Shown here: one piece after another, positions 43,419 to 63,121 of the stretch
Layout of the letters: each line of letters starts with the position of its first letter
Position numbering within the stretch: position 1 is the stretch's first letter
Assembly: GCF_001281385.1 (NCBI RefSeq)
Contig: NZ_CP006911.1
Coordinates: 744,001 to 808,000, forward strand
DNA length: 64,000 nucleotides
Direction: 5' to 3'
Origin: Candidatus Pseudothioglobus singularis PS1
Lineage (GTDB): Bacteria > Pseudomonadota > Gammaproteobacteria > PS1 > Pseudothioglobaceae
Program-made: the position numbers and the translations under genes
The notes under the pieces: generated by a model
What the model saw: the letters and a program-made list of their open reading frames with translations, nothing else
What the model was told of the DNA's origin: nothing
The model's database searches: none

Positions 43419-43452
43419 ATGGACTACTAAAAAATCTTAAGCTGGTTCTATA
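43419..43452 (+). promoter_or_regulatory. Putative TauR operator upstream of tauA (direct repeat, 23-bp phasing)
   Basis: Half-sites ATGGACTACT (43419-43428) and CTGGTTCTATA (43442-43452) start 23 bases apart. The same arrangement, with an identical CTGGTTCTATA and the same 23-base phasing, occurs between tauR and tpa. From memory, the Rhodobacter capsulatus TauR box is a direct repeat close to CTGGACTTAA, which these half-sites resemble. A -10-like TAAACT lies 41 bases after the start of the second half-site (the tpa promoter has TACAAT at 40), so activation from a site just upstream of -35 is plausible. The rest of the 298-base gap (43352-43649) holds another TACAAT at 43617 and the strong tauA ribosome binding site. 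Confidence 0.6.
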
Positions 43453-43649: not shown

Positions 43650-44645
43650 ATGAAAAGTATTTATAAAAAACTTGGAGCAACAATTGTCAGTGCTATGGCT
43701 ACAGTCAATGTAATGGCTCTAGATGAGTTAAATGTTGCTTATTTTGAAGAGTGGCCAATGCCTTTTGAGTATGCAAAGCAAATTGGTGCATATGATGAAG
43801 CATTAGGAATGAAAGTTAACTGGAAGGCTTTTGGAACAGGTACAGCAATGTCGGCTGCAATGGCTTCTGGTGATATTCATATCTCTGTGAGTCAAGGTGT
43901 TCCTCCGTTTATCGTGGCAGCTTCAACTGGCCAAGACATTCAAATCGTTGATGTGGCAGTAAGTTATGCAGACAACGACAACTGTGTTGTAGCTTCAGGT
44001 TTAGAAATTGATGCAAGCAATGCTTCAGAATTGGCTGGTAAAAAAGTGTCAGTTCCAATTGGAACAGCTGCTCACTATGGTTTCTTAAAGCAAATGGAGC
44101 ATTTTGGTGTTTCAGTCGATTCGATGCAAGTAGTTGATATGGCTCCACCAGAGGGTGCGGCTGCTTTAGCTCAAGGAAGTATTGATATGTTTTGCGGATG
44201 GGGTGGTTCACTTCGTCGTGCTCTAGATCATGGTAATGTACTTCTAACTGGTGCTGAAAAAACTGCACTAGGTATTTTAGTTTGGGACGTTACATCTGTA
44301 CCAGCAGGATTTGCTGATGAAAATGCAGAAGTTCTTCAAACATTCTTAGGTGTTACTGCAGCGTCTAACGCGATGTGGAACTCAGGAGGTTTTACTTCAT
44401 TGATGCTACCTCATATTGCTAAGGATGCTGGTATGGACGAAGATGCTACAGCAGAAACAATGGCTACTTTTGTATTCCCTTCAGTTGCTAACCAACTTGG
44501 TGATAACTGGCTTGGTGGTTCAGGTGCGGCTTTCCTTAAAGGTGTAGCAGATGTATTCGTTAGTAGCGGAAACATCCCAAGTGCTCGTGGTTCATATGCT
44601 AATGCTATTAATACTGATGGTTTAGAAGGATTGGCAGAACAATAA
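43650..44645 (+). CDS. tauA: Taurine ABC transporter, periplasmic substrate-binding protein
   Basis: Solute-binding protein for taurine or related sulfonates. A signal peptide ending near ATVNVMA precedes the mature protein (LDELNVAYFEEWPMPFEYA). NMT1/SsuA-like features include GTGTAMSAAMASGDIHISVSQGVPPFIVAAS and GKKVSVPIGTAAHYGFLKQ, plus a tryptophan-rich pocket region (FCGWGGSLRRAL, ILVWDVTSVPAGF). The 331 residues are typical for the marine TauA type. A strong ribosome binding site (TAGGAG) lies 6 bases upstream. It is followed after 114 bases, including a terminator-like hairpin, by tauB. Taurine specificity is inferred from the tpa, xsc and tauR neighbours. Confidence 0.93.
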   Translation: MKSIYKKLGATIVSAMATVNVMALDELNVAYFEEWPMPFEYAKQIGAYDEALGMKVNWKAFGTGTAMSAAMASGDIHISVSQGVPPFIVAASTGQDIQIVDVAVSYADNDNCVVASGLEIDASNASELAGKKVSVPIGTAAHYGFLKQMEHFGVSVDSMQVVDMAPPEGAAALAQGSIDMFCGWGGSLRRALDHGNVLLTGAEKTALGILVWDVTSVPAGFADENAEVLQTFLGVTAASNAMWNSGGFTSLMLPHIAKDAGMDEDATAETMATFVFPSVANQLGDNWLGGSGAAFLKGVADVFVSSGNIPSARGSYANAINTDGLEGLAEQ

Positions 44646-44699: not shown

Positions 44700-44732
44700 A
44701 AAGGTGGCGCACTTTTAGTGTGCCACCTTTTT
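44700..44732 (+). terminator. Intercistronic hairpin (leaky terminator) between tauA and tauB
   Basis: A 13-bp stem AAAGGTGGCGCAC / GTGTGCCACCTTT (one G-U pair) with a TTTTA loop, ending in five T. It lies 55 bases after tauA and about 30 bases before tauB. Placed inside an operon, it would reduce read-through so that the binding protein is made in excess of the membrane components, and it may also protect the tauA 3' end. Confidence 0.85.
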
Positions 44733-44759
44733 AATGATTTAAAGAATTCGGAGCTAACT

Positions 44760-45563
44760 TTGAAAGGTTTATCAATTGAAAATATATCGATGCGGTTTGA
44801 TTTGAAGAATGGTTCTTCAGTGCAAGCACTCAAAGACGTATCTTTGGACATTGAAGCAGGACAAATTATTACTGTTCTTGGTCCCTCAGGTTGTGGAAAA
44901 ACAACATTATTAAATATCGTTGCTGGTTTTCTTGCGCCGACGGAAGGAAAAGTCGTTCTTAATGGGCAAACTGTTCAAGGTCCAGGAGCCGAGCGTGGAA
45001 TGGTTTTTCAACAGGGCGCTTTGTTTGAGTGGATGGATGTTCGTGCTAATGTTGCTTTTGGTCCTCGTATGAAAGGAACTCCAAAAGCAGAACAAGATGA
45101 AAAGGTTAAGCGCCTTTTAGAAATTGTTGGATTAGCTGATTTTGAAGATAAAGCTGTTTATGAGTTATCGGGCGGTATGCAACAAAGAGTCGCTTTGGCG
45201 AGATGTCTCGCAAATGATCCTGATGTCATTTTAATGGATGAACCCTTAGGCGCTCTTGACGCACTAACAAGAGAAAAAATGCAGGGTTTGGTTTTAAAAC
45301 TTTGGAAGGAAACAGGAAAAACAATTTTATTAATTACTCACTCAGTTGAAGAGGCTGTCCTTTTGGGCGAAAGACTTTTGGTTCTTGCTCCAAGACCAGG
45401 AAGAATACATAAAGAATACAAGTTGCCGTTTGCTGAAATGGGAGTCAATATGGACTTGAGAGAGGTTAAAAAATCTGAAGGCTATTCTGAAACTCGAGAT
45501 GAGATCCTCTCTATTATTTGGGAGATGGAAGAAGAAATTATGGGCAGGGCGGACGAAAACTAA
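44760..45563 (+). CDS. tauB: Taurine ABC transporter, ATP-binding protein
   Basis: ATPase of the sulfonate importer (NrtD/SsuB/TauB family). Motifs: Walker A GPSGCGKTT, Q-loop VFQQGALFEW, signature LSGGMQQR, Walker B VILMDEPLGALD and the H-loop LLITHSVEEAVLLG. I choose TTG at 44760 (MKGLSIENISMRFD) because GGAG lies 6 bases upstream. The GTG at 44718 is inside the terminator-like hairpin and gives an unnatural N-terminus. The protein is 267 residues. Its stop overlaps the tauC start (TAATG). Confidence 0.93.
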   Translation: MKGLSIENISMRFDLKNGSSVQALKDVSLDIEAGQIITVLGPSGCGKTTLLNIVAGFLAPTEGKVVLNGQTVQGPGAERGMVFQQGALFEWMDVRANVAFGPRMKGTPKAEQDEKVKRLLEIVGLADFEDKAVYELSGGMQQRVALARCLANDPDVILMDEPLGALDALTREKMQGLVLKLWKETGKTILLITHSVEEAVLLGERLLVLAPRPGRIHKEYKLPFAEMGVNMDLREVKKSEGYSETRDEILSIIWEMEEEIMGRADEN

Positions 45564-46831
45564 TGACTATTTTAATTATTTATATTTTAATTTTCATAGC
45601 TGCTTTTTACTTAGTAAAGATAGTCAGTTCAATGAGAGCTGTAAAAGATGATTTTACAAGTTTAAAGACTGTTACATTTGGTGACGAAAGTGCAGTATCA
45701 CCCAATAGAGCTGCATCTATTATTTCAGTTATTGCAATTTTTGCAATTTGGGCTGCGTTTACTGGCTCTAAATATATTCCAGTTCATGTTCCTGGGCCAT
45801 TTATTGGTGAACTTTCGTTTGAGTACACTGCAATAAATGCATTAGGACAAACTGATGATGCTGAAGTTACAGTTACAGTTTATGATGTTCAGTCTGGAGA
45901 TATTCCAGATAAGCTAGAAGTTGATCCTGGCTCAGGTTTTGCTCTAAACGATACTGCCCAGATTATTACTTACAGAAGTGGTTTAGTAAAAGTCCAAAAA
46001 AATGATGTTGGCGGCAAAGAAAAAGGTTACAAAGTGATTGCTATTAATGGCCAAGAGATATCACCAAGTACTGAGCTTTTTATTGACAATGCCCGAATCT
46101 ATATGACTGCAAAGGGCACCTTGAGTGTAAAACCTGAACAAGGATGGCAGATGCAGCCTGTTTGGCTTCCTGCTCCAGAAGCTGTCGGCTCAAGATTGTT
46201 AAAAGTTTATAATGAAGGTTTTAAAAACTTCACACTTTTTGAGCATCTAGGTTGGTCCTTGCTTAGGGTTGTTGTTGGCTTTGTGGCTGGAGCTATTGTT
46301 GGAATTCCTTTAGGTTACGCAATGGGACTTTCTGGATGGTTTCGTGGTTGGTTTGATCCGATAGTTGAATTTATGAGACCAGTGCCTCCATTAGCTTTAA
46401 TTCCATTGGTCATCATCTGGTTTGGAATTGGTGAACAAGGAAAGATTATTTTGCTATTCCTTGCTTCGCTTTGGATAATGACAATTTCTGCTAGAGCAGG
46501 CGTATCTGGTGTAAAAATTTCTAAAATACATGCCGCATACTCCTTAGGCGCCTCTAAGTGGCAGATTATGAGATTAGTTATTGTTCCAAATAGTTTGCCA
46601 GAGATATTTACTGGCGCCCGAGTGTCTATGGGTGTCTGCTGGGGAACTGTTGTTGCGGCAGAGCTTGTTGCCGCTCAAAAGGGTGCTGGCATGATGATTA
46701 TTAATGCCTCTAAGTTTCAGATGACTGATCTAGTTATTATGGGAATTGTACTCATTGGCGTAATTGGATATGCAATTGACATATTAATGCGTATTTCAGA
46801 AAATTATCTTGTCCCATGGAAAGGTAAATAG
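45563..46831 (+). CDS. tauC: Taurine ABC transporter permease with extra extramembrane domain
   Basis: Binding-protein-dependent permease of the SsuC/TauC family. The ATG at 45563 overlaps the tauB stop. The C-terminal 220 residues are a normal TauC: WLPAPEAVGSRLL, LLRVVVGFVAGAIVGIPLGYAMG, PVPPLALIPLVIIWFGIGEQGK and the EAA-loop AAYSLGASKWQIMRLVIVPNSLPEIFTG. The N-terminus is unusual: two membrane segments (about residues 2-21 and 50-68), then some 130 residues (70-198) of mostly beta-rich sequence (FEYTAINALGQTDDAEVTVTV and following) before the canonical start. Total 422 residues against about 275 for E. coli TauC. The extra domain, probably periplasmic, may contact TauA or substrate. Confidence 0.9.
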   Translation: MTILIIYILIFIAAFYLVKIVSSMRAVKDDFTSLKTVTFGDESAVSPNRAASIISVIAIFAIWAAFTGSKYIPVHVPGPFIGELSFEYTAINALGQTDDAEVTVTVYDVQSGDIPDKLEVDPGSGFALNDTAQIITYRSGLVKVQKNDVGGKEKGYKVIAINGQEISPSTELFIDNARIYMTAKGTLSVKPEQGWQMQPVWLPAPEAVGSRLLKVYNEGFKNFTLFEHLGWSLLRVVVGFVAGAIVGIPLGYAMGLSGWFRGWFDPIVEFMRPVPPLALIPLVIIWFGIGEQGKIILLFLASLWIMTISARAGVSGVKISKIHAAYSLGASKWQIMRLVIVPNSLPEIFTGARVSMGVCWGTVVAAELVAAQKGAGMMIINASKFQMTDLVIMGIVLIGVIGYAIDILMRISENYLVPWKGK

Positions 46832-46870: not shown

Positions 46871-49339
46871 ATGTCGCAAATATTACCCAAACAAGCACAA
46901 GCTGTCATTATCGGAGGAGGAGTTGTTGGATGTTCAGTGGCCTATCACCTCGCTAAACTTGGCTATACAGATGTTGTGCTTCTAGAACGTAAAAAATTGA
47001 CCTCTGGTACCACGTGGCATGCGGCGGGACTTGTTGGTCAAATGCGTTCTTCTCTCAATTTAACTCAAATGGTTAAGTATTCAGGCAATCTTTATGAAAC
47101 TTTAGAGGCTGAAACTGGTATGGCAACTGGCTACAGACGGACTGGCTCTGTGAGCCTCGCTACTAATCAAGAAAGGCTTACTGAATATAAGCGAAATGCC
47201 TCGCTTGCAAAAGTGCATGGTGTAGATGTTCAAATTTTAACGACTGATGAGTTAAGAGATAAAGTCAATTTCTTTAATCTTGATGATGTAGTTGGTGGTG
47301 CGTGGATTCCAAAAGATGGAAAAGCTGATCCAGCAAATGTTGCAATGGCTTTAGCCAAAGGTGCAAAAAATAAAGGCGTTAAAATTTTTGAGGATGTAAA
47401 AGTTACTGGAATTCTTAAAGAGAATGGAAAAGCAACTGGTGTTCAAACCGAGTTTGGGGAAATTCAATCTGAAGTCGTTGTTAATTGCGGCGGAATGTGG
47501 GCTAGAGAAGTTGGAAAAATGGCTGGTGTTTCAGTTCCACTTCATGCATGTGAGCACTTTTATTTTCTAACTTCAGCAGTTCCAGGGTTAGGAGATATGC
47601 CTGTAGTAAGAGTCCCTGATGAGTCAGCATACTACAAAGAAGATGCTGGAAAAATTCTGGTTGGTTTATTTGAGCCTAATGCAAAACCTTGGGCTCAAAA
47701 TGGAATCCCTGATGATTTTTGTTTTGATCAAATTCAGGATGATTTAGATCACTGTATGCCTTATCTTGAGTTAGCAATGAATAGGGTTCCAGTAATGGAA
47801 AGCCTTGGCATTGAAACTCTTTTTAATGGACCTGAAAGCTTTACTCCAGATGATAATTTCCAAATTGGAGAGTCTCCAGAGTTAGGCAACTTTTATGTAG
47901 CAGCAGGATTTAACTCAATAGGTATTCAGGCTGCTGGTGGAGCTGGAAAGTATCTTGCAGAGTGGATTATTGCAAAAGAGCCTCCTTGTGACTTATGGGA
48001 TGTTGATATCAGAAGAAATCAATCCTTTCAAAGCAATAAAACTTATTTAGCCAACAGAGTAACTGAGACTCTGGGTTACCTTTATGAAAATCATTTTCCA
48101 TACCACCAGTACGAGACTGCAAGAGGACTAAGAAAAACACCTCTTTATGATTTCTTTAAAGAACGAGGTGCTTGTTTTGGAGAGGTTGCAGGTTGGGAGA
48201 GGCCTAATTGGTTTGTTCCTAAAGAAATGATTGGAAAAGTTGAGCCAAAGTATGAATATTCTTGGGGCAGGCAAAATTGGTTTGAATTTCACAAGCTTGA
48301 GCAACTAGCTATTAGAGAAACGGTTGGTATGTATGAAATGTCTTCATACGCCAAAATTAGGGTTAAGGGTTCAGACGCGATGGATTTCCTTCAGCTTGTC
48401 TGTGCGAATGATGTTAATGTTGAGCCAGGTAAAATGGTTTACACACAGTGGCTAAATGACAAAGGCGGTATTGAAGCGGATGTAACTGTAACCCGATTAG
48501 AATCTGATGATTACCTTATAGTGAGCGGAACAGTGTGCCTTAATAGAGATATGCATTGGCTTCAAAAAAATATGCCGAAAGACGCTAACTGCTCATTGTT
48601 TGATTCAACAAGTTCGGAGGGGTGTATTGCAATTATGGGGCCAAATTCGAGAGATTTACTCCAATCCCTTACAGATGCTGATATGAGTAACGAAAGTTTC
48701 CCATTTGCAAATGTTCGAAATATTGAGATAGGTATGGCAAATGTAAGAGCACATAGAATTACTTATGTAGGTGAATTAGGATGGGAGCTATACTTTCCAA
48801 TTGAATTTTCAAGCTATGTTGCTGAGTTAATAGATGAAAAAGGCATAGAGTTCTCTCTCAGGCAGATTGGAATGCATACGGTTGATAGCTGTAGAATTGA
48901 AAAAGCGTATAGACATTTTGGCCATGATATTACTGATGAAGACCATGTCATTAATGCAGGCCTTGGATTTGCAGTAAAGCTTGATAAAAAACCTTCTAAA
49001 TATGGAAATTTTATTGGCTACGACTCAGTTCAATCAAAAAAAACTGCTGGGTATGATATGCGAGTCATGCAATTTTTATTAAATAATTCAGATCTAATGC
49101 TTTACCATAATGAGCCTATCCTAAAAAATGGGGAAATTGTCGGTCATTTAACTAGCGGAACATATAGCCATACTCTGGGAAGTGCTGTCGGTCTTGGTTA
49201 TATACCCTGTAAACCTAATGAAAGCCAAGAGGATATCTTGAGCGCTGATTACTCCATCGAGGTAGAGGGTGTTATTGAGAAGTGTAAGGTTTCTCTGAAG
49301 CCAATGTATGATCCACTAAATGAGAAAATTAGAATCTAA
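46871..49339 (+). CDS. Dimethylglycine/sarcosine dehydrogenase-like FAD and folate enzyme
   Basis: An 822-residue member of the DMGDH/SarDH family. Order: DAO-type FAD domain with AVIIGGGVVGCS (about 11-22) and the flavin-linking-histidine motif TWHAAGL (His50), then the FAO_M region ending near residue 425, then the GcvT-like folate-binding domain (LGYIPCK and LGWELYFP regions in the C-terminal half). Family enzymes oxidatively remove N-methyl groups and pass the carbon to tetrahydrofolate. It follows tauC by 39 bases on the same strand, so it is in the tau operon. This context suggests that an N-methylated taurine or glycine betaine derivative is the substrate. The substrate itself is inferred. 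Confidence 0.88.
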   Translation: MSQILPKQAQAVIIGGGVVGCSVAYHLAKLGYTDVVLLERKKLTSGTTWHAAGLVGQMRSSLNLTQMVKYSGNLYETLEAETGMATGYRRTGSVSLATNQERLTEYKRNASLAKVHGVDVQILTTDELRDKVNFFNLDDVVGGAWIPKDGKADPANVAMALAKGAKNKGVKIFEDVKVTGILKENGKATGVQTEFGEIQSEVVVNCGGMWAREVGKMAGVSVPLHACEHFYFLTSAVPGLGDMPVVRVPDESAYYKEDAGKILVGLFEPNAKPWAQNGIPDDFCFDQIQDDLDHCMPYLELAMNRVPVMESLGIETLFNGPESFTPDDNFQIGESPELGNFYVAAGFNSIGIQAAGGAGKYLAEWIIAKEPPCDLWDVDIRRNQSFQSNKTYLANRVTETLGYLYENHFPYHQYETARGLRKTPLYDFFKERGACFGEVAGWERPNWFVPKEMIGKVEPKYEYSWGRQNWFEFHKLEQLAIRETVGMYEMSSYAKIRVKGSDAMDFLQLVCANDVNVEPGKMVYTQWLNDKGGIEADVTVTRLESDDYLIVSGTVCLNRDMHWLQKNMPKDANCSLFDSTSSEGCIAIMGPNSRDLLQSLTDADMSNESFPFANVRNIEIGMANVRAHRITYVGELGWELYFPIEFSSYVAELIDEKGIEFSLRQIGMHTVDSCRIEKAYRHFGHDITDEDHVINAGLGFAVKLDKKPSKYGNFIGYDSVQSKKTAGYDMRVMQFLLNNSDLMLYHNEPILKNGEIVGHLTSGTYSHTLGSAVGLGYIPCKPNESQEDILSADYSIEVEGVIEKCKVSLKPMYDPLNEKIRI

Positions 49340-49342
49340 TAG

Positions 49343-50098
49343 TTAGTTTTGTATAAATACGCCTATTAATGTTGCTACTCCAACGATTCCAAGTGCTATC
49401 AAAGAGGAGTTTCTATAGTATTTATTCCCAGAAACATTAAAAAACCTTGTGCCTAAATATGTAGAAAAGACATAGATTGGGGCAGTTATTGCGCCTGTCA
49501 AGAGAATATTTTTTGTAAATAGGCCAAAAAAGTAAAGACTAATAATAGCGCTTATTACTAGACCAGAGGTTATAACCAAAATATTTGCACGTGTAACCTC
49601 ATCACTGTCATTCTTAGATAATAGAACAGTTACATATGGTGGACCTCCCATCCCTGTTGATCCTTGCATTAATCCACTGATAAAACCTCCTAAGGTGAGA
49701 ACATGACTAGTTATTGAAGATTTGATTCGCCAACCACTGCCAATCAGAATAACGAATAATATTAAGAAGGAAGACATCAAGGTTTTTATGATTTGTTCGT
49801 CTACTGAAACTAAAAAAATCATTCCAAAAGGGATACTTAACATCATGGTTATCATCATAGGAGTTATCTCCTTTAGATTAGATTTTTTAACACCAATAAA
49901 AGTCAAGTATATAGTTGCAGGGATTTCGATGACAATATTGAAAACCATCGCAAAGACTGGTGAGTAGAAATAGGATAGAATTGGGATCATTAGCAACCCT
50001 GATCCAAAACCAATGAACCCTCTTAAAAAACCAGAAAGAACAACAACTATAACAATTAAAAAATAATTATCAGGAACAAAGTTAAAGAAATCTTCCAT
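49343..50098 (-). CDS. tauE: TauE/SafE family sulfite exporter
   Basis: Integral membrane exporter (251 residues, about eight membrane segments) of the TauE/SafE family. The family halves are visible: GFLRGFIGFGSGLLMIPIL at the N-terminus and GGFISGLMQGSTGMGGPPYVTVLLS in the second half. Members export sulfite or sulfoacetate. Sulfite is released by Xsc, so the context supports sulfite. It is 3' of tauR by 5 bases on the minus strand, giving a tauR-tauE unit divergent from tpa. Its end converges on the DMGDH-like gene with 3 bases between stops. Confidence 0.88.
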   Translation of the reverse strand: MEDFFNFVPDNYFLIVIVVVLSGFLRGFIGFGSGLLMIPILSYFYSPVFAMVFNIVIEIPATIYLTFIGVKKSNLKEITPMMITMMLSIPFGMIFLVSVDEQIIKTLMSSFLILFVILIGSGWRIKSSITSHVLTLGGFISGLMQGSTGMGGPPYVTVLLSKNDSDEVTRANILVITSGLVISAIISLYFFGLFTKNILLTGAITAPIYVFSTYLGTRFFNVSGNKYYRNSSLIALGIVGVATLIGVFIQN

Positions 50099-50103
50099 TA
50101 AAT

Positions 50104-51588
50104 TTAGTGAGATTTAGGAATCAAAGATTTAATTTCTTTGATGATAATATCCATACCCTTGTTTATCTTGTTTGTATCTATAGCGGAATACCCAAGGTGT
50201 AAAAAGTTTGAAGGAGGGTTTTTCTCATTAAATAGTGTATTTCCAGATCTTACTGAAACACCTTTTTTTAATAGTCTCTTGCAAAGTATATCGCTATCAA
50301 CTGATTCAGGAATTTCAACCCAAAAAGTTGAGCCTCCAAGAGTTGGTGCACAAGACAATAGTGGCTCTTGATGAATTTTTTCATTAATTAGCCCCCATCG
50401 TTCTTTATTTGTTTTTTGTATTTTGGTAAACATATTATGGTAATGACCTAATCCAATAAATAGAGCAACAGACCTTTGATTATTTGCAGGTATGTGTCTT
50501 ATCATGAGACGCCTTAGAGCTTTAGCCTCTTTTATGAAGCTCTCTGGTGCTACCATATATCCAAGCCTTAGGCCTGGCGCAAATGCTTTAGAGAAGCTGC
50601 CAACATAGATGACATTATTATCTTTATCAAGACTTTTTAATGAAGGATGAGGTTTTTTTTGAAAGTTAATTTCAGCTTCATAATCATCCTCAATAATAAC
50701 CATTTGATTTTCTTTGGCAATTGATAGAAGTTCATTTCGTCTGTCCATGCTCATAGTGACACCGGTTGGATATTGATGACTTGGAGTGGTAAAAATAATA
50801 TCAGTTTTAGGGTCGATATCTTTGATGACAATTCCATCCTTATCAATACTAATTGGGAAAATATTGTCAGTTTTTGAGCTAAATATATTTCTGACATCTG
50901 GATATCCTGGGTTTTCCATACCCACAACAGTGCCTTGCTTGGTAAGTAAGCTGGCGATTATATATATCGCATTCTGACTTCCTGATGTAATTAGAATTTG
51001 ATCTTTATTTGCCCAAATACCTCTCTTTGGAAGTACCTTAGATTGAATCTGTTTAATTAAAGAGGGGTCATCATTATCGACATGATCTATATTCCATTTT
51101 TGAATTTCAGGAAGTGTCGATGAATGCCTGACTACTTCTCTCCATTCATAGTAAGGAATTAGGCTTTTATCAATTTGACCAATAGTAAATGAATAGGGCA
51201 GATTTTGCCAGTTCTCTGGATTATGAATATTTGTTTGGGTCGATGGTTTTTTTGTGATTAACTTATCATGCCATATAGGTGATTCAACATTACTTGACTG
51301 TTCGCTGTCATTTGAATTGTAGCTCTCATAAAACTGCTCATTTACATAATACCCTCTCCTTTCTTGAGGAGTAATATAGCCATCAAACTCTAACTCTTTG
51401 TAGGCAGCAATGACTGTATTTCTAGCAACTTTAAGAGCACTTGCTAGATTTCTGGATGATGGGAGGGGTTCATTTGGACCAATTAAACCATTTGTAATTG
51501 CATCAATCAACTGCTGGCGAATTTGAAGTTGAAGGGTCCGAGGCTTGTCATGCCTAAGAGAAAAAAACTGGTTCCACATTTCATCCAT
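50104..51588 (-). CDS. tauR: TauR-type MocR/GntR transcriptional regulator
   Basis: A 494-residue fusion of an N-terminal GntR winged helix (LRQQLIDAITNGLIGPNEPLPSSRNLASALKVARNTVIAAYKELEFDGYI, about 25-75) and a fold-type-I aminotransferase domain, the MocR layout. The PLP-lysine context is VGSFSKAFAPGLRLGYM, with DDYEAEINF before it. TauR of other bacteria activates taurine genes with PLP and taurine as effectors. Divergent from tpa, with tauE 5 bases downstream. The gap between tauR and tpa holds the putative operator pair. Confidence 0.92.
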   Translation of the reverse strand: MDEMWNQFFSLRHDKPRTLQLQIRQQLIDAITNGLIGPNEPLPSSRNLASALKVARNTVIAAYKELEFDGYITPQERRGYYVNEQFYESYNSNDSEQSSNVESPIWHDKLITKKPSTQTNIHNPENWQNLPYSFTIGQIDKSLIPYYEWREVVRHSSTLPEIQKWNIDHVDNDDPSLIKQIQSKVLPKRGIWANKDQILITSGSQNAIYIIASLLTKQGTVVGMENPGYPDVRNIFSSKTDNIFPISIDKDGIVIKDIDPKTDIIFTTPSHQYPTGVTMSMDRRNELLSIAKENQMVIIEDDYEAEINFQKKPHPSLKSLDKDNNVIYVGSFSKAFAPGLRLGYMVAPESFIKEAKALRRLMIRHIPANNQRSVALFIGLGHYHNMFTKIQKTNKERWGLINEKIHQEPLLSCAPTLGGSTFWVEIPESVDSDILCKRLLKKGVSVRSGNTLFNEKNPPSNFLHLGYSAIDTNKINKGMDIIIKEIKSLIPKSH

Positions 51589-51592
51589 TATT

Positions 51593-51647
51593 CTGGCCTA
51601 TTAATTGTAAGTTTCCTGGTTCTATATATATATTAAATCAGGACCAG
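51593..51647. promoter_or_regulatory. Putative TauR operators in the tauR-tpa gap
   Basis: Half-sites CTGGCCTATT (51593-51602) and CTGGTTCTATA (51616-51626) start 23 bases apart, as upstream of tauA. A third half-site in the opposite orientation (TCAGGACCAG, 51638-51647) pairs with the second as an imperfect inverted repeat. A -10-like TACAAT (51656-51661) lies before tpa. The tpa start follows a very strong ribosome binding site (AGGAGGG). Operator identity is inferred from recurrence and resemblance to the known TauR box. Confidence 0.6.
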
Positions 51648-51703
51648 TTATATTTTACAATTCGTTTCTTGAAAAATGCACTGAATTTGAACGAGGAGGG
51701 AGT

Positions 51704-53065
51704 ATGTCAAATACTACAGTTGTAGATAATGCTAAAGATCACGTCTGGCACCATTTAACCCAACATAAAGCTTTTGAAGAGAACGATCCTTTAGTGATGA
51801 CTGAAGCAAAAGGTATGATCATAACAGATTCTAAGGGTGATGAATATCTAGACGCCACCTCTGGAGGTGTTTGGACCGTTAACCTCGGCTATGGAAGAGA
51901 TGACATGGTTAAGACAGTCTCGGATCAACTTTCAAAAATACCATACTTTGCTGGTGCCTTTGGAAATGAGCCAGCGTCTCATTATGCTCAAGAAATAACA
52001 TCTCTTATGCCTGGAATGAATCGTGTTTATTATTCAAACTCAGGCTCTGAGGCGAATGAAAAGGGTTACAAAATGGTCCGTCAGTTAGCACATTTTGATA
52101 ATGATGGAAAAAAACATAAAATTATTTTTCGTGATCGTGACTATCATGGCACCACTATTGGGGCTATGAGTTCATCGGCTCAAATTCAAAGAAAGAAACA
52201 GTATGGGCCTTTTGCGCCAGGTTTTGTAGAAATGCCTAATTGTTGTTGCTATCGTTGTCCGTTTGGTAAAAAGTATGGGGAATGCAATATTGAATGTGCA
52301 ACAGTTCTTGAAGATATTATTTTGAAAGAAGACCCTGATACTGTTGGTTCAGTTGTGCTTGAGCCTATTACTGCTGGTGGCGGCGTGATTCCTCCAGTTC
52401 CAGAGTATTTCCCAATTATTCAGTCGATCTGTAAAAAATATGACGTTTTGCTTCACATTGATGAGGTAGTTTGCGGACTTGGTAGAACGGGAAAATGGTT
52501 TGGTTATCAGCACTTTGATGTGCAGCCTGACATTGTCACAACTGCAAAAGGTTTGGCGGCGGGTTATGCTGCAATATCTGTAACTATTACATCTGAGGAA
52601 ATTTTTCAAAGATTTAAGCAAGATCATACTAATCCGGATAGTTACTTTAGAGATATTTCTACTTTCGGTGGCTGTACTGCTGGTCCAGCAGCAGCGCTTG
52701 AGGTGGTGAATATTATCAAAAAAGAAAATCTCCTTGAAAACGTAACAAACATGGGTAACTATCTTAAGGATAAGTTGAACGCTCTTCAAGATAAGTATGA
52801 AATTATTGGAGATGTTAGAGGAAAAGGATTGTTTTGTGGTGTTGAGCTAGTCAAAGATAGGCAAACTAAAGAGCCAGTTCATGAAAGCGTTGCAATGGCT
52901 ATTGCGGGGCATTGTTTAAAAAATAAAGTAATGATTGGAAGAACCAATCGTAGTTTTGAATTTAATAACAATGTACTGCTTTTTAGCCCTTCTTTCATAT
53001 GTTCTAAAAATGAAATTGATCTAATTGTAAATGCTGTTGATAATGCAATTTCAGCAAATACATAA
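51704..53065 (+). CDS. tpa: Taurine-pyruvate aminotransferase
   Basis: Class-III PLP aminotransferase that converts taurine plus pyruvate to sulfoacetaldehyde plus alanine. Motifs are GSEANEKGYKMV, HIDEVVCGLGRTG and the PLP lysine in TTAKGLAAGY (Lys282). A cysteine-rich stretch NCCCYRCPFGKKYGECNIEC (Cys180-182, 185, 194, 198) is present, a CYRCPFG-type motif also seen in other class-III aminotransferases. The 453 residues fit Tpa. First gene of tpa-ald-xsc, with a strong Shine-Dalgarno. Assignment to taurine rests on xsc, ald and tauABC beside it. Confidence 0.93.
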   Translation: MSNTTVVDNAKDHVWHHLTQHKAFEENDPLVMTEAKGMIITDSKGDEYLDATSGGVWTVNLGYGRDDMVKTVSDQLSKIPYFAGAFGNEPASHYAQEITSLMPGMNRVYYSNSGSEANEKGYKMVRQLAHFDNDGKKHKIIFRDRDYHGTTIGAMSSSAQIQRKKQYGPFAPGFVEMPNCCCYRCPFGKKYGECNIECATVLEDIILKEDPDTVGSVVLEPITAGGGVIPPVPEYFPIIQSICKKYDVLLHIDEVVCGLGRTGKWFGYQHFDVQPDIVTTAKGLAAGYAAISVTITSEEIFQRFKQDHTNPDSYFRDISTFGGCTAGPAAALEVVNIIKKENLLENVTNMGNYLKDKLNALQDKYEIIGDVRGKGLFCGVELVKDRQTKEPVHESVAMAIAGHCLKNKVMIGRTNRSFEFNNNVLLFSPSFICSKNEIDLIVNAVDNAISANT

Positions 53066-53099
53066 ATAACTTTATAAATAAATTTATAGGAGAATTACT

Positions 53100-54218
53100 A
53101 TGATTATTGGTGTTCCAAAAGAAATTAAAAACCATGAGTACAGAGTAGGATTAACGCCTAGAAGTGTTAAGGAGTTTATTAATCATGGCCACAAAGTTTT
53201 AGTTCAAACCAATGCAGGTGTTGGAATTGGTGCAAGCGATGATGAATATTTAGATACTGGGGCTGAAATCATATCTACTGCGAAGGAAGTTTTTGATAAA
53301 GCGGAAATGATTGTAAAGGTAAAAGAGCCACAAGCAGAAGAAATTGCAATGCTTAGAGAAGGTCAAATTCTATACACTTATCTTCATCTTGCTCCAGATC
53401 CAGAGCAAACTAAGGGTTTGGTAGAAAGTGGTGCAATTTGTATAGCCTATGAAACAGTCACATCTCCAAGAGGGGGCCTTCCATTATTAGCGCCGATGTC
53501 AAAGGTTGCTGGAAGAATGGCAGTCCAAGCTGGCGCCCACTTTTTAGAGCATCCAAATGGTGGCATGGGTGCACTACTTGGTGGTGTTCCAGGGGTTGAT
53601 CCACTTAATGTTGTGATACTAGGTGGTGGTGTTGTTGGTGCACACGCAGCCCATATGGCTGTTGGAATGGGAGCTGATGTTTGGGTACTGGACAACAATC
53701 CTGATACTCTGGAGCAGCATTGGCAGCAGTTTGGAAGAAGCACAAATACTGTCTTCTCTACAAAAAGCTCAGTTGAAGAGTATGTGCTTCAGGCAGACCT
53801 GGTTATTGGTGGTGTTTTAATCCCAGGTGCTGAGGCACCAAAATTAGTTTCTAAAGAGATGATTAAGGCAATGAAGCCTGGATCTGTGATTGTTGATGTT
53901 GCAATTGACCAAGGTGGTTGCTTTGAAACTTCGAAAGCAACAACACATGCTGAGCCAACTTATATTATTGATGATGTGGTTCATTATTGTGTGGCAAATA
54001 TGCCTGGAGGCGTTCCAAAGACATCTACTTATGCCCTGAACAATGTAACATTGCCGTTTGGGCTGAGTATTGCAAATAAAGGTGTTAAGCAAGCTTTATT
54101 AGATGATGAACATTTGAGAGCAGGATTGAATGTCCACAGCGGACAAGTAACCTGTCTTGAGGTGGCTCAAGATTTGGGATATGATTATGTCCCAGCGCTT
54201 GATATGCTCAATAAATAA
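53100..54218 (+). CDS. ald: Alanine dehydrogenase
   Basis: NAD-dependent oxidative deamination of L-alanine to pyruvate and ammonium. Here it regenerates the pyruvate used by Tpa and releases taurine nitrogen. Features are the N-terminal MIIGVPKEIKNHEYRVGLTP, the substrate Lys and catalytic His region (LYTYLHLAPD), the NAD loop VVILGGGVVGAHAAHMAVGMGADV, and VDVAIDQGGCFETSKATTHAEPTY. The 372 residues match the family. It lies 34 bases after tpa and 24 before xsc, with the ribosome binding site ATAGGAG. Confidence 0.97.
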   Translation: MIIGVPKEIKNHEYRVGLTPRSVKEFINHGHKVLVQTNAGVGIGASDDEYLDTGAEIISTAKEVFDKAEMIVKVKEPQAEEIAMLREGQILYTYLHLAPDPEQTKGLVESGAICIAYETVTSPRGGLPLLAPMSKVAGRMAVQAGAHFLEHPNGGMGALLGGVPGVDPLNVVILGGGVVGAHAAHMAVGMGADVWVLDNNPDTLEQHWQQFGRSTNTVFSTKSSVEEYVLQADLVIGGVLIPGAEAPKLVSKEMIKAMKPGSVIVDVAIDQGGCFETSKATTHAEPTYIIDDVVHYCVANMPGGVPKTSTYALNNVTLPFGLSIANKGVKQALLDDEHLRAGLNVHSGQVTCLEVAQDLGYDYVPALDMLNK

Positions 54219-54242
54219 ATAATATAAATAGGAGAGAAAGAA

Positions 54243-56015
54243 ATGGCAAAGATGACCTCAAGTGAGGCTTTCGTTGAAACAATGGTCGCTAATGATGTAA
54301 CTGATATCTTCGGCATCATGGGCTCAGCTTTTATGGATGCAATGGATATTTTTGAACCAGCAGGTATCAGATTTATTCCAGTAGTTCATGAACAAGGCGC
54401 TGCGCATATGGCAGATGGGTACTCAAGAGTTAGTGGTAGACATGGTGTAGTGATTGGTCAGAATGGTCCTGGTATCTCCAACTGCGTAACAGCTATTGCT
54501 GCTGCTTACTGGGCTCATAGTCCTGTTGTTATTGTGACTCCTGAAGCTGGAACTATGGGTATGGGCCTTGGAGGCTTTCAAGAAGCTAATCAGCTTCCTA
54601 TGTTCCAAGAGTTTACTAAGTACCAAGGTCATGTTGTTAATCCGATGAGGATGGCTGAATTTACGGGTCGTTGCTTTGATAGAGCTATGAGCGAAATGGC
54701 TCCTACTCAGCTAAACATTCCAAGAGATTACTTTTATGCAGATGGTGAGTTTACAATTCCTACTCCAAGAAGAATTGATAGAGGATCTGGAGGCGAGGAT
54801 ACTTTAAACGAAGCTGTTGCTTTAATTGCAAAGGCTAAGTTTCCAGTTATTGTTTCAGGTGGTGGTGTTGTTATGGCGGATGGCGTTCAGGAATGTGCTG
54901 CATTAGCAGAACGTCTTGGTGCACCGGTCGTTAATAGTTATCTTCACAATGATTCTTTCCCCGCGAGTCACGATTTATGGTGTGGTCCACTAGGTTATCA
55001 AGGCTCAAAAGCAGCTATGAAGTTAATCTCAAAAGCAGACGTGGTTATTGCTCTAGGGACTCGCCTTGGTCCTTTTGGTACGCTACCTCAGCACGGGATG
55101 GATTATTGGCCTAAAGATGCTCAAATTATTCAAATTGATGCTGATCACAAAATGTTAGGTTTAGTAAAACCTATCAATGTTGGTATCTGTGGTGATGCAA
55201 AAGCTGTAGCTGAAGTTCTATGTCAAAAACTAAAATTAGAAACGTTGAGCTGTGATTCAACTAAGTCTGAAAGAGCCTCAACAATTGCTGAGGAAAAATC
55301 AGCTTGGGAGCTCGAGCTTGATGAGTGGATTCATGAAACTGACTCTTATAGTATGGATATGATTGCTAACAAAGAAGAAGGATGGCTTCATCCAAGACAA
55401 GTCCTACGCGAACTTGAAAAAGCTATGCCTGAGGATGTCATGGTCTCTACTGATATTGGAAATATCAATTCTGTAGCAAACAGCTACCTTAGATTTGAAA
55501 AGCCACGTAGTTTTTTTGCAGCGATGAGTTTTGGAAACTGTGGTTATGCCTTTCCAACAATTATTGGAGCCAAAGCAGCCGCTCAACACAGGCCCGCTGT
55601 TTCTTATGCAGGTGATGGTGCTTGGGCAATGAGCATGGTTGAAACTATGACTTGTGTGCGTCATGACATTCCAGTGACTGCAGTTGTTTTTCATAATCGT
55701 CATTGGGGCGCTGAAAAGAAAAATCAAGTAGATTTTTATGACAGACGTTTTATTGCTGCTGAGCTTACTGATCAGCACTTTGTTAATATTGCAGAATCAA
55801 TGGGTGCTGAAGGAATACGAGTTGATAAACTTGAAGATGTAGGTCCAGCTCTTAAAAAAGCGATAGATATGCAAATGAATGAAAGAAAGACAACAATAAT
55901 TGAAATTATGTGCTCAAGGGAGCTTGGAGATCCGTTCAGAAAAGACGCATTAAGCAAGCCAGTTAGATTCCTTGACAAGTATAAAGATTTTGGTGAAAAA
56001 TCTCCTCATCGATAA
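54243..56015 (+). CDS. xsc: Sulfoacetaldehyde acetyltransferase
   Basis: Thiamine-diphosphate enzyme that cleaves sulfoacetaldehyde with phosphate to acetyl phosphate and sulfite, the C-S bond-breaking step. N-terminal domain with VHEQGAAHMADGYSRVSGRHGVVIGQNGPGISN, a central domain, and a C-terminal TPP domain with SYAGDGAWAMSMVETMTCVRH and VVFHNRHWGAEKKNQVDFY (the GDG...N motif). The 590 residues match Xsc (about 595), and the sequence is specific enough to exclude acetolactate synthase. No pta follows; the acetyl phosphate must be handled elsewhere. A long hairpin terminator follows. Confidence 0.96.
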   Translation: MAKMTSSEAFVETMVANDVTDIFGIMGSAFMDAMDIFEPAGIRFIPVVHEQGAAHMADGYSRVSGRHGVVIGQNGPGISNCVTAIAAAYWAHSPVVIVTPEAGTMGMGLGGFQEANQLPMFQEFTKYQGHVVNPMRMAEFTGRCFDRAMSEMAPTQLNIPRDYFYADGEFTIPTPRRIDRGSGGEDTLNEAVALIAKAKFPVIVSGGGVVMADGVQECAALAERLGAPVVNSYLHNDSFPASHDLWCGPLGYQGSKAAMKLISKADVVIALGTRLGPFGTLPQHGMDYWPKDAQIIQIDADHKMLGLVKPINVGICGDAKAVAEVLCQKLKLETLSCDSTKSERASTIAEEKSAWELELDEWIHETDSYSMDMIANKEEGWLHPRQVLRELEKAMPEDVMVSTDIGNINSVANSYLRFEKPRSFFAAMSFGNCGYAFPTIIGAKAAAQHRPAVSYAGDGAWAMSMVETMTCVRHDIPVTAVVFHNRHWGAEKKNQVDFYDRRFIAAELTDQHFVNIAESMGAEGIRVDKLEDVGPALKKAIDMQMNERKTTIIEIMCSRELGDPFRKDALSKPVRFLDKYKDFGEKSPHR

Positions 56016-57325: not shown

Positions 57326-59476
57326 CTACTTTGCCTGCTTAGCTTCAAGAAATTTACGTCTGAACCTTATTAATATATCTTCTGTGTATCCATTTGCCTG
57401 ATCTGCACCTTCAAATGCAAGCGCTATTGAGGCTTTATAAGCAAAACTATCAAAGTTTGGCGCCAATGCAAGATAGTTAGGGTCATGTTTATTTTGATCA
57501 TCAACAATAACAGCCATATCTTGAAATGCTTTATTTACCTGATCTTTTGTACATATTTTATGATGAAGCCAATTTGCCATATGTTGTGAAGAAATTCTTA
57601 GTGTAGCTCGGTCTTCCATTAGACCAATATGATTGATATCTTGAACTTTTGAGCAACCAATCCCCTGGTTAATCCATTTAACGACATACCCTAAGATGCT
57701 CTGCGCATTGTTATTGATTTCCTTAATAATTTTCTCTTCAGATAATTGATCAGCTAACTTCAAAAATGGAATTTTATACAGGTCGTCCTGGTTTGGTTTT
57801 TGGTGCTTAGATAAGAGCTCTTGTTGCTGTCTAAATACATTAAAACGATGATAATGAGTAGCATGTAAAGTTGCTGCTGTTGGTGAAGGAACCCATGAAC
57901 AGCTTGCTCCAGCCTCTAAATGGACCATTTTGTTATCTAGCATTTGACGCATTTGGTCGGGCTGAGCCCACATACCTTTTCCAATTTGTGCTCTTTTATA
58001 AAGACCAGATTCAAGGCCTGAACTGACATTATTTTCTTCATAGGCAGAAAACCATGCCTCTTCCTTGATGAGGTTTTTACAGCGTATCGCTCCCGCCATC
58101 ATAGAAGTATGTATTTCATCACCCGTTCTATCAAGAAATCCGGTATTAATAAAAATGATGCGATTTCTAGCTTCGTAAATACAGGCTTTTAGGTTTAGAG
58201 TTGTTCTTCTTTCTTCATCCATAACCCCAATCTTAAGAGTGTTTTCCTTAATTGACAGTGCTTTCTCAACTGCTGAAAATAAATCCATAGTGAATTTAAC
58301 TTCTTTAGGGCCATGAAGCTTGGGTTTGACAATATAGATACTACCTTTTTTGGAATTCATTTTGAGTTTTAAATCATGAAGGGCAATCAGTGAAGTAACC
58401 ATTGCATCCAAAATACCTTCTGGGATTGGTGATCCATCATTATTCGTAACCATTTCAGTTGTCATGTGGATGCCTACATTTCGAACAAGCGTTAAACTTG
58501 TTCCAGGAAGCTTACAGATAGCTCCATGACTATCAGTATAGGTCTTATCGTTATTCAATGATCTCGTAATAGTTTCGCCACCCTTTACAAAAGAGGCGCT
58601 TAATTCACGCTTCATGAGTCCAAGATAGTTTCGATATGCATGAATTTTTTCTTCGTCTGAGACAGTGGATGCAGAATCCTCAAAGTCAACGATTGTAGTC
58701 ACAGCAGACTCCAATATGACATCAAAGATCCCACTCTTATGAAGGCTCCTTTCTTGGTCACATACAATCTCAATATGAAGATTATTGTTCTTTAATAATA
58801 TATTTCCATTTTCAGTAAGCCCAATATATTGACTAGGGTTTATTAAGGTTGCTACTTCACCGTCATTCAAATTAAAAATTAAAGTTCCCTTATACTTAAC
58901 TTGAGTTGTAATTTGTCGATATGAAGCGCCCTTAAGGGGTGCAATTTCATCGAGAAAATCACAAGCAAGTTCTGCTGTTCGATTAACCCTTTGAAGATTA
59001 TGCGCAAATGAGGTACTCATGCTACCCTTATTAGGTATGACATTGGTTCCATAAAGTGAGTCAAAGAGACTACCCCATCTTGCATTTACAGCATTTAGGA
59101 CAAATCTTTGATTGGTAATAGGGACAACGAGTTGAGGTCCTGCAACTTGAGAAATTTCATCATCAACCTCTTCTACTTCAATAGAGAATTCATCTGGCTT
59201 TTCAGCGACATAACCAATACTCTCCAAAAATTCTTTGTATTTCTGAGGGTCGATACGTTTATTTTGAAGATGCCACTCATCTATTTGTGATTGCAATTCA
59301 TCACGTTTATCTAAGAGTAATTGGTTAGACTCTTGAAGTTCACTCAAAATTTTCGAAAGCGATTCGAAGAAATCAGTTGCAGTGATTTCTAATCCATCAC
59401 ATACTTCGTTATCAATAAAGTCAAAGAAGATTTTATCAACTTTAATATCTTGAATTATTTGTTGGCCAGCGCTCAT
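57326..59476 (-). CDS. glcB: Malate synthase G
   Basis: Condenses glyoxylate with acetyl-CoA to malate, the second reaction of the glyoxylate shunt. The 716 residues match the G isoform (E. coli GlcB 723), not the shorter A isoform. Family sequences include ALNAVNARWGSLFDSLYGTNVIP, NDGSPIPEGILDAMVTSLIALHDLK, IYIVKPKLHGPKEV, the loop LKIGVMDEERRTTLNLKACI, FINTGFLDRTGDEIHTSM and the C-terminal ILIRFRRKFLEAK. Its start overlaps the rraA stop (ATGA), so it is coupled to the aceA-aceK-rraA genes upstream. This places both shunt enzymes in one operon. Confidence 0.97.
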   Translation of the reverse strand: MSAGQQIIQDIKVDKIFFDFIDNEVCDGLEITATDFFESLSKILSELQESNQLLLDKRDELQSQIDEWHLQNKRIDPQKYKEFLESIGYVAEKPDEFSIEVEEVDDEISQVAGPQLVVPITNQRFVLNAVNARWGSLFDSLYGTNVIPNKGSMSTSFAHNLQRVNRTAELACDFLDEIAPLKGASYRQITTQVKYKGTLIFNLNDGEVATLINPSQYIGLTENGNILLKNNNLHIEIVCDQERSLHKSGIFDVILESAVTTIVDFEDSASTVSDEEKIHAYRNYLGLMKRELSASFVKGGETITRSLNNDKTYTDSHGAICKLPGTSLTLVRNVGIHMTTEMVTNNDGSPIPEGILDAMVTSLIALHDLKLKMNSKKGSIYIVKPKLHGPKEVKFTMDLFSAVEKALSIKENTLKIGVMDEERRTTLNLKACIYEARNRIIFINTGFLDRTGDEIHTSMMAGAIRCKNLIKEEAWFSAYEENNVSSGLESGLYKRAQIGKGMWAQPDQMRQMLDNKMVHLEAGASCSWVPSPTAATLHATHYHRFNVFRQQQELLSKHQKPNQDDLYKIPFLKLADQLSEEKIIKEINNNAQSILGYVVKWINQGIGCSKVQDINHIGLMEDRATLRISSQHMANWLHHKICTKDQVNKAFQDMAVIVDDQNKHDPNYLALAPNFDSFAYKASIALAFEGADQANGYTEDILIRFRRKFLEAKQAK

Positions 59477-59952
59477 GAATTTACCTTATTTTCAATTACA
59501 ATTACACCATCTTCATCAGCATAAAGATAATGATTTGGGATAAATTTTACATTTGAAAAGTCAACAGTTAAATTTCTTTTTCCATTTCCTTTTTTAATAC
59601 TTTTTCGAGGGCAAACGCCTAGAGCTCTTATGCCAATAGCCATGGAATTAATCATTACAGAATCCCTAATTGATCCATTTACAACAATCCCCTCCCACTC
59701 ATTTTTAATTGCGTCTGATGCTCTTTTATCCCCGAGCATTGCACACCTCAAAGATTCACCAGCATCGACAACTAAAACGCAGCCTTTGCCATTCATTTTT
59801 AAAGCTTCTTCAACGAGAGAATTATCTTCAAAGCATTTGATAGTAACAATGCGACCTGAAAAAGCAGTTTTACCTCCATAGCTCTTAAATATGGGATCTA
59901 AGTATTGAACATGGGGATGCAGCTGATCTGAAATATCACAGGTTGACTTCAT
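59473..59952 (-). CDS. rraA: RraA family protein
   Basis: A 159-residue protein of the RraA/HMG-CHA aldolase family. E. coli RraA inhibits RNase E, and other members are aldolases or oxaloacetate decarboxylases. Family sequences are LDPIFKSYGGKTAFSGRIVTIKCFEDNS, NEWEGIVVNGSIRDS and HYLYADEDGVIV. The metal-binding pair Arg96-Asp97 (IRD), needed by the aldolases and replaced in E. coli RraA, is present. It is exactly between aceK and glcB, one base from the aceK start region and overlapping glcB by ATGA. So a metabolic role with glyoxylate or oxaloacetate is possible. RNase E regulation remains the alternative. Confidence 0.85.
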   Translation of the reverse strand: MKSTCDISDQLHPHVQYLDPIFKSYGGKTAFSGRIVTIKCFEDNSLVEEALKMNGKGCVLVVDAGESLRCAMLGDKRASDAIKNEWEGIVVNGSIRDSVMINSMAIGIRALGVCPRKSIKKGNGKRNLTVDFSNVKFIPNHYLYADEDGVIVIENKVNS

Positions 59953-61746: not shown

Positions 61747-61768
61747 TTTAAGTTCGTTATATGTAGAA

Positions 61769-61788
61769 GCCCTTCAAATATGAAGGGC
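61769..61788 (-). other. Intercistronic hairpin between aceA and aceK
   Basis: A perfect 8-bp stem GCCCTTCA / TGAAGGGC with a 4-nt loop, in the 67-base gap between aceA (upstream on the minus strand) and aceK. The minus-strand sequence after the stem is TTCTACAT, not a U-run, so it fits an mRNA-processing or stabilising hairpin better than a terminator. E. coli also makes far less AceK than AceA through intercistronic structure, so the same use is plausible. Confidence 0.7.
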
Positions 61789-61813
61789 ATCATAGAATTA
61801 TTACTGATAAGAC

Positions 61814-63121
61814 TTAACTAAACTGCTCTTCCTCAGTTGAGCCTTTCAGTGCAGTTACTGATGATTCTCCACCCTGAATAACAGTTGTGACGTCATCAAA
61901 ATAACCTGCTCCAACTTCTTGCTGATGAGATGCAAAGGTGTACCCTTTCTTTGCAGCATTAAACTCTGGCTCTTGAACCTTTTCAACATAGTGTTTCATG
62001 CCTTCGCCTTTTGCATATTCATAAGCAAGGTCAAACATGTTATACCACATATTGTGTATGCCAGCCAAAGTGATAAATTGATACTTATAACCCATCTCAG
62101 AAATCTTTTCCTGAAAAGAGGCAATTTGACTATCATTTAAATTCTTTTTCCAGTTGAACGATGGAGAGCAATTGTAGGCTAGTAGTTGGCCGGGATTTTC
62201 TGCAAGAACTGCTTCTGCAAACTCGCGCGCAAATCCAAGATCAGGTTTGCCCGTTTCACACCATACCAAGTCAGCATAAGGGGCATAAGCAACTCCTCTT
62301 GAGATGGATTGTTCAAGGCCATTTTTAACAACATAAAAACCCTCAGCAGTTCTCTTTCCAGTAATAAAGGCAGCATCATGTGGATCAACATCTGAAGTAA
62401 GAAGATTTGCTGCTTCTGCATCAGTCCTGGCAAGCAGAAGTGTAGGAACACCCATAACATCTGAGGCCAAGCGAGCAGAAATCAGTTTTTGAACTGCTTC
62501 TTGTGTTGGCACTAAAACTTTACCACCCATATGTCCGCACTTCTTAACTGCAGCCAGCTGATCTTCGAAGTGAGCTCCAGCGGCACCATTAGCAATCATA
62601 TTCTTCATTAACTCAAATGAATTCAATACGCCGCCAAATCCAGCCTCTGCGTCGGCAACGATTGGTAAAAAGAAATCAATATATTTATCATCACTAGGGT
62701 CGATACCTTGGGACCACTGAATTTCATCTGCTCTTTTAAATGTATTGTTAATTCTTCTTACCATTGTAGGCACAGAGTCATAAGCGTAGAGTGATTGGTC
62801 CGGGTACATTGTTTCAGAGGTATTTCCATCAGCAGCAACTTGCCACCCAGAAAGATAAATTGCCTCAATGCCAGCCTTTGCCTGCTGCATTGCTTGACCT
62901 GCAGTGATTGCTCCCATGCAGTTGACATAGCCTTTTTTGGATGAGCCATTAACCAGATCCCAAAGCTTTTCAGCCCCTCTTCTAGCATAAGTACATTCAG
63001 GCTGAACTGATCCACGAAGCCTTACAACATCTTCAGCAGAATAAGTTCTTTTGACGTTGGACCATCTGGGGTTATCCTGCCAGTCTTTCTCTAATGCTTT
63101 AATTTGCTCTTTTCTGTTCAC
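61814..63121 (-). CDS. aceA: Isocitrate lyase
   Basis: Cleaves isocitrate to glyoxylate and succinate, the first shunt enzyme. The signature KKCGHMGGK carries the catalytic cysteine, which is residue 195 when GTG 63121 is used as start, exactly the E. coli numbering. That start has AAGGAGA 5 bases upstream. An ATG at 63142 would add seven residues and lies beyond the ribosome binding site. Most of the sequence reads like E. coli AceA ([51 protein letters not shown]). Length 435 matches E. coli (434). First gene of the aceA-aceK-rraA-glcB block, divergent from the IclR regulator. Confidence 0.97.

Follow-up and report, generated by a model that had tools for sequence, protein, structure and literature searches.

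Candidatus Pseudothioglobus singularis PS1 carries, among its genes for taurine uptake and dissimilation, a gene for a dimethylglycine dehydrogenase (DMGDH)-type protein, predicted to be an FAD- and folate-dependent N-demethylase. The linkage of this gene to tauC is not due to chance, and two exact operator copies, which precede tauABC-DMGDH and tpa-ald-xsc respectively, are a new observation here. Our preferred interpretation (probability roughly 0.5) is that a demethylase of the glycine-betaine pathway was captured by the taurine regulon and may now act on N-methyltaurine and/or N,N-dimethyltaurine, passing the one-carbon (C1) unit to folate. Overall, a role in taurine use is better supported than any single substrate. 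If the interpretation is true, this marine lineage would exploit a C1 unit and a C2 sulfonate jointly, and finding a demethylase in the taurine-importer operon of a cultured ocean bacterium suggests the use of methylated taurines made by seaweeds. Because one member of the lineage has been cultured and sequenced in full, the idea is directly testable.

The window (the whole 64-kb stretch of DNA that was analysed, positions 744001–808000 of the 1,714,148-base genome, a single contig) contains, in order, tauA, tauB, tauC and the DMGDH-type gene on the forward strand, tauE and tauR on the reverse strand, and tpa, ald and xsc on the forward strand. The transporter genes are named from their best NCBIfam matches, all three of which fall below the model cut-offs: a taurine-type solute-binding protein (tauA, 43650–44645; top match TIGR01729, with E. 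coli TauA, 6ssy, as top PDB match), an ABC ATPase (tauB, 44718–45563; top match the taurine ATPase model PRK11248), and a permease (tauC, 45563–46831; top match TauC PRK10160, with PF00528 at residues 247–413 of 422). A stretch of about 110 residues or longer separates the N-terminus of TauC from its permease domain, a long form seen again in the alphaproteobacterial taurine clusters L081, L251 and L266.

Directly beyond the DMGDH-type gene (49343–56015) lies a predicted downstream taurine pathway that was absent from the sequence-only reading of this DNA and that strengthens the case for a taurine operon. It consists of a sulfite exporter (tauE, 49343–50098, reverse; PF01925, with no NCBIfam match), a MocR-type regulator (tauR, 50104–51588, reverse; GntR and Aminotran_1_2 domains), a class-III aminotransferase resembling taurine:pyruvate aminotransferase (tpa, 51704–53065; PF00202), alanine dehydrogenase (ald, 53100–54218; TIGR00518, above cut-off), and sulfoacetaldehyde acetyltransferase (xsc, 54243–56015; TIGR03457, 1018 bits against a cut-off of 676). 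The Tpa-like protein passed no NCBIfam cut-off among the 25 models shown, its function being assigned from the cluster. Among the models shown for the regulator, only PdxR was passed (376 against 320 bits) and no taurine model, so the name TauR rests on its place and on the operators described below. The presence of tpa, ald and xsc together with tauABC and a MocR-type regulator is the pattern by which taurine dissimilation is recognised, and the cluster agrees in its genes, in the type of its regulator and in the structure of its operators with the TauR regulon and taurine dissimilation clusters described in the text of PMC5320631.

The DMGDH-type gene (46871–49339, forward strand) starts 39 bases after the end of tauC at 46831 and is an intact open reading frame of 822 residues, uninterrupted over its full length. 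Its Pfam domains (DAO 11–365, FAO_M 370–422, GCV_T 425–701, GCV_T_C 732–814) follow the layout of the DMGDH/sarcosine dehydrogenase family, in which DAO with FAO_M is followed by GcvT and GcvT_C. Reading frame and domains thus bear out the earlier description of a DMGDH-like protein with FAD and folate domains lying just 3' of tauC on the same strand. In the PDB the protein comes closest to mammalian DMGDH (E values near 1e-138 to 1e-139; 468 bits against 4pab), and the match to human DMGDH reaches 465 bits (E 5e-138). Mammalian DMGDH (4pab, 4p9s, 5l46) and the dimethylglycine oxidase of Arthrobacter (1pj5) are homologous to the window protein over its full length and share its four domains, the WHAAG motif and an aligned His/Tyr pair, though only the window protein is encoded in a taurine operon. 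In the alignment, TTWHAAGL pairs with the corresponding stretch of rat DMGDH, and the histidine of the motif (H50), by which covalent flavinylation is predicted in this family, is present and aligned. We take H50 to be the residue carrying covalent FAD and the aligned pair H229/Y254 to be catalytic, as in dimethylglycine oxidase; all three are kept in at least 98% of 126 rows from the window group and its sister clade. The window group has its motifs at H229 (HFY), Y254 (YYKED) and N348 (GFNSIG) in common with the sister family, and they are unlike those of the four PS1 paralogues discussed below and of rat DMGDH, whose pocket region reads HQY, YYLRQE and GFGYG. Estimates of dN/dS are about 0.03–0.05 for three pairs, all at saturated dS, and no value was obtained for another two; by these estimates the gene is under purifying selection.

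Across 58 genomes (PS1 itself, its relatives and the class), a near full-length orthologue with at least 73% identity occurs in 22; 21 of these belong to the genus, which has 29 members in the set, and one to the wider family. A taurine gene adjoins the intact orthologue in all 22 genomes, and in 20 of them tauC stands immediately 5'; the gap between tauC and DMGDH is 31–42 bases in all 20 loci measured, one of which is the broken copy of G014. The sequence-only reading had made its proposal depend on conservation of the tauC linkage, and within the lineage this linkage is conserved. In G014 (locus L054, from an assembly with 6% contamination) the orthologue is broken after about 420 residues and followed by other genes. 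Two loci, L044 and L048, have DMGDH without tauABC, still beside tauR, tpa, ald and xsc. As the last codons of tauC persist upstream of the intact DMGDH gene in the alignment of L044, we infer that this locus lost the transporter and kept the enzyme. At L043 no tauR intervenes, and tauABC-DMGDH-tpa-ald-xsc form one run on one strand. Among the 29 genus genomes, many of them incomplete, DMGDH (broken copy included) and xsc were found together in 19, with neither in 5, DMGDH alone in 3 and xsc alone in 2 (Fisher p = 0.008, kinship and incomplete genomes ignored); two of the three cases of DMGDH alone, L050 (G019) and L034 (G020), end at a contig edge before xsc. Locus L062, a duplicate of a G009 contig, was left out of the tree and counts.

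In Rhodobacter capsulatus, TauR is described as binding direct repeats of CTGGACYTAA (PMC5320631). Putative direct-repeat operators of the CTGG type are present in the PS1 genome as well, where upstream-region alignments revealed paired boxes before tpa and before tauA that agree in box type and repeat structure with the description in that text. One predicted operator, with two CTGG-type boxes about 23 bases apart, lies 5' of tauA (43420–43452, forward strand), and another lies in the tauR-tpa interval (51594–51626, forward strand). Both match TGGMCTAYTA-N12-CTGGTTCTATA exactly and are the only two matches in the window at up to three mismatches (0.01 expected); a near-identical pattern gave three sites in the whole genome at the same threshold, compared to one for the reversed control pattern. 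Because these copies stand before tauABC-DMGDH and before tpa-ald-xsc, the DMGDH-type gene is probably a member of the taurine (TauR) regulon, and we infer that it is co-transcribed with tauABC under TauR. Promoter-like sites occur at chance level (25 against 27.2), one of them just 5' of DMGDH (46776–46804), and terminator-like sites number 1 against 5.6 in shuffled sequences. By position and with up to three mismatches, 9 of the 21 gene-bearing genomes of the genus, counting G014 with its broken copy, have the tauA-side site (besides the window genome G009, G010, G012, G014, G016, G019, G020 and G021); for several other genus genomes the tpa site alone passes, and one site of G006 lies on a separate contig with no assignable position. 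On our preferred interpretation, the N-demethylase has become a fixed member of the TauR regulon in this SUP05-clade lineage.

A search of the window with 12 betaine-related query proteins (two MttB, BHMT-like, SoxA, SoxB, BADH-like, two glycine-betaine transporters, FolD, PurU, EtfA and EtfB) found no glycine-betaine gene, matching only the DMGDH-type protein itself and the permease domain of TauC, in keeping with the earlier statement that none lie nearby. Elsewhere in the PS1 genome the DMGDH type is represented by at least four more paralogues of near full length (matches to about 1e-31), of which two lie directly beside MttB-family genes, one lies near a sarcosine-oxidase alpha-subunit gene and one has no recognised neighbour of this kind. 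The two paralogues tested against human DMGDH scored 589 and 617 bits, both higher than the window protein. Loci L056 and L057 of this genome hold DMGDH-type paralogues that each adjoin an MttB-family gene.

The relatives of the window protein give a different setting. On a FastTree phylogeny of 207 rows (no bootstrap), the window group, taurine-linked in 22 of 22 tips, is the sister of a 104-tip clade (local support 100). Around these 104 tips, an XRE-cupin regulator recurs at 49 loci, an MttB-family methyltransferase at 36 and a homocysteine S-methyltransferase family protein at 30, together with a second DMGDH-like gene and, at 22 loci, a betaine-aldehyde-dehydrogenase-like gene that falls below the model cut-off; neighbour clusters were named from one representative each, and those resembling wrong-frame reading frames were left unnamed. 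Among six plasmid records, three have ETF, FolD, PurU, MttB-family or betaine-transporter genes nearby, one has a sarcosine oxidase about 7 kb away and two have neither. This neighbourhood is broadly like the setting of glycine-betaine demethylation, as proposed in the texts of PMC3160333 and PMC4744692 for SAR11 and Ruegeria pomeroyi. The mostly alphaproteobacterial relatives in betaine clusters (52–60% identity) have the same catalytic residues as the PS1 group, and other neighbours and another regulator. Since its sister family stands among betaine-demethylation genes, the window enzyme most likely descends from a betaine-pathway demethylase.

This descent bears on the main alternative, in which the protein would still be a dimethylglycine or sarcosine dehydrogenase of betaine catabolism, placed under TauR control and acting on a betaine-derived substrate and not on methyltaurine; the reason for such control would be that taurine and glycine betaine come from the same dying cells. 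The neighbours of the sister family and the catalytic residues that it has in common with the PS1 group point this way. We consider it less likely than the preferred interpretation: the window lacks the betaine genes searched for, other DMGDH-type genes of the genome lie near sarcosine oxidase (one) or next to MttB-family genes (two), and the place in the operon is constant across the genus and persists in the absence of tauABC. The HFY, YYKED and GFNSIG motifs also differ from mammalian DMGDH, though the sister family has them too.

Within the 104-tip clade, eight tips carry a taurine label and lie in several places, and over the whole tree, where the label is also found on some outgroup rows, it changes at least 13 times, so taurine linkage arose or was lost repeatedly. 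At the 31 positions fixed differently between the PS1 group and the sister clade, the eight taurine-labelled relatives have the residue of the PS1 group in 6 of 248 cells, and thus no specificity change common to independent taurine-linked members was found.

Taurine linkage is rare outside the lineage. The best 80 loci listed in a genome scan comprised one from the same lineage, with the rest mostly alphaproteobacterial (52–60% identity). Fetched flanks contained xsc in 6 of 79 of the best loci listed, compared to about 0.45 expected (assuming one xsc and 4 Mb per genome, kinship ignored); four of these have xsc with tauAB or tauABC (Pararhizobium L074, Ahrensia L081, Pseudovibrio L097 and Roseibium L106) and two have xsc only (L065 and L073). 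In a random draw of 289 alphaproteobacterial genomes, 74 had a strong homologue, 32 had xsc and 24, counting the centre genome, had both, a co-occurrence that may reflect only lifestyle and ancestry and is weak support. A taurine gene (of the Xsc, TauA, TauC or Tpa type) was near 2 of the 80 loci fetched from the 90 places listed, and with 24 of 34 xsc places examined a DMGDH-family gene was near 1 of 23, the linked locus of the chosen centre being left out; gene calls are crude in GC-rich loci. On these two counts, alphaproteobacterial taurine linkage was rejected as proof of function. A random draw of 274 gammaproteobacterial genomes gave matches at E 1e-150 in 23, the window's own among them, and of 18 loci fetched two had xsc or tpa nearby, while another two had just a TauR-like gene. 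Of 21 taurine-linked or xsc loci scanned for pairs of CTGGACYTAA, 2 had sites (L106 and L266), as did 0 of 151 others. Roseibium L106 has such sites before tpa, tauR and xsc, with none before its DMGDH genes; as the sites occur only in L106 and L266, the scan is silent on the DMGDH genes of the other linked alphaproteobacteria, in which it found no site. Though a minority of the wider family near taurine genes could fit neutral hitch-hiking, in which DMGDH would stand in the operon by accident and with no metabolic tie to taurine, the near-fixed spacing, operators, purifying selection and retention without tauABC make this very improbable.

Compared to E. coli TauA, the TauA group has Asp in place of Glu106 and Ala in place of Thr132 (one row of the alignment, L049, was a TauB and was disregarded), and both residues are among the E. 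coli positions named in the text of PMC6906117. The PS1 pocket motifs are those of L251 and L266, taurine clusters with no DMGDH, and the pocket was rejected as a sign of methyl specificity since plain taurine clusters have the same motifs. The lack of some E. coli pocket residues may indicate a broader specificity, in which case the enzyme could demethylate another N-methylated zwitterion or sulfonate imported by TauABC, such as N-methylated hypotaurine or beta-alanine. This seems unlikely, as plain tpa-xsc clusters have the same type of TauA and the product would not enter tpa-xsc.

For the use of methylated taurines, gene order and its conservation, domains, catalytic residues, paired operators and purifying selection are the sequence-based elements, around which the following pathway may be envisaged. 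TauABC would import N-methyltaurine and/or N,N-dimethyltaurine; the FAD domain would oxidise an N-methyl group to an iminium, with electrons passing on, probably to ETF, and the folate domain would take the carbon as 5,10-methylene-THF. From the taurine produced, Tpa/Ald and then Xsc would yield acetyl phosphate, along with sulfite that TauE would export. A different bacterial N-methyltaurine route, from the work of Weinitschke et al. in 2006, reportedly proceeds with no demethylation and releases methylamine, as is said of N-methyltaurine dissimilation in Alcaligenes faecalis and Paracoccus versutus. Both that route and the one proposed for PS1 would reach sulfoacetaldehyde and Xsc, whereas the latter would begin with demethylation and retain the methyl carbon.

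Methylated taurine is favoured as the substrate because the place in the operon is fixed and that in the regulon probable, the gene is kept without tauABC, other DMGDH-type paralogues are present and algal methyltaurines exist, with mono-, di- and trimethyltaurine occurring naturally in the red alga Galaxaura rugosa (PMC10538540). Against it stand the unchanged catalytic residues, the 6 of 248 cells, the L106 sites that do not precede DMGDH and the plain type of TauA, and also the rarity of the linkage in other lineages, the restriction of the tauA-side operator to 9 of 21 genomes, the PdxR match of the regulator and the existence of a methylamine-releasing route for N-methyltaurine. The demethylation of methylated taurines put forward in the sequence-only reading is thus upheld as to operon and regulon place, domains and lineage linkage, while the betaine context of the sister family weighs on the substrate, leaving the interpretation plausible at about even odds. 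Somewhat short of even is the broader proposal that a TauR-controlled, folate-coupled N-demethylase, evolved by capture of a betaine enzyme, would let SUP05-clade heterotrophs use algal N-methyl- and N,N-dimethyltaurine as a source of carbon, nitrogen, sulfur and C1 units. Marine prokaryotes reportedly draw much of their carbon and energy from taurine (PMC6647121), and the related Ca. T. autotrophicus proved unable to use it (PMC6509183). A literature search, with most subscription journals outside its scope, found no publication that deals with bacterial N-methyltaurine demethylation, with an enzyme of the DMGDH type acting on methylated taurines or with the PS1 operon, and the main text of PMC5320631, regulon tables apart, contains no words starting with 'dmg' or 'methyltaurine'. 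Such a route could possibly, though with slightly less than even confidence, be an undescribed taurine counterpart of glycine-betaine demethylation.

Several further features were observed around the cluster and its relatives. A third TauR-type operator lies outside the window (G000:C1:261360-261392, reverse strand); near-identical strings recur outside the taurine cluster in many genus members and also in G003, where neither xsc nor DMGDH was found. As targets of the third site, Pta, a YeiH/TauZ-type exporter and an NMT1-type binding protein were ruled out, and a Na:Ala symporter, another candidate, had no match in the genome. A choline/ethanolamine-kinase-like gene repeatedly pairs with a distinct DMGDH-like clade about 44% identical to the window protein (L048:10639-13961, L220-L223 and L225). 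In two members of the genus (L041:2944-4290 and L038:7393-8739) the tpa slot is filled by a class-III aminotransferase about 26% identical to the window Tpa. Adjoining the PS1 taurine cluster are glyoxylate-shunt genes for the assimilation of acetyl-CoA (malate synthase, aceK and isocitrate lyase) and an RraA-like gene (57326–63142).
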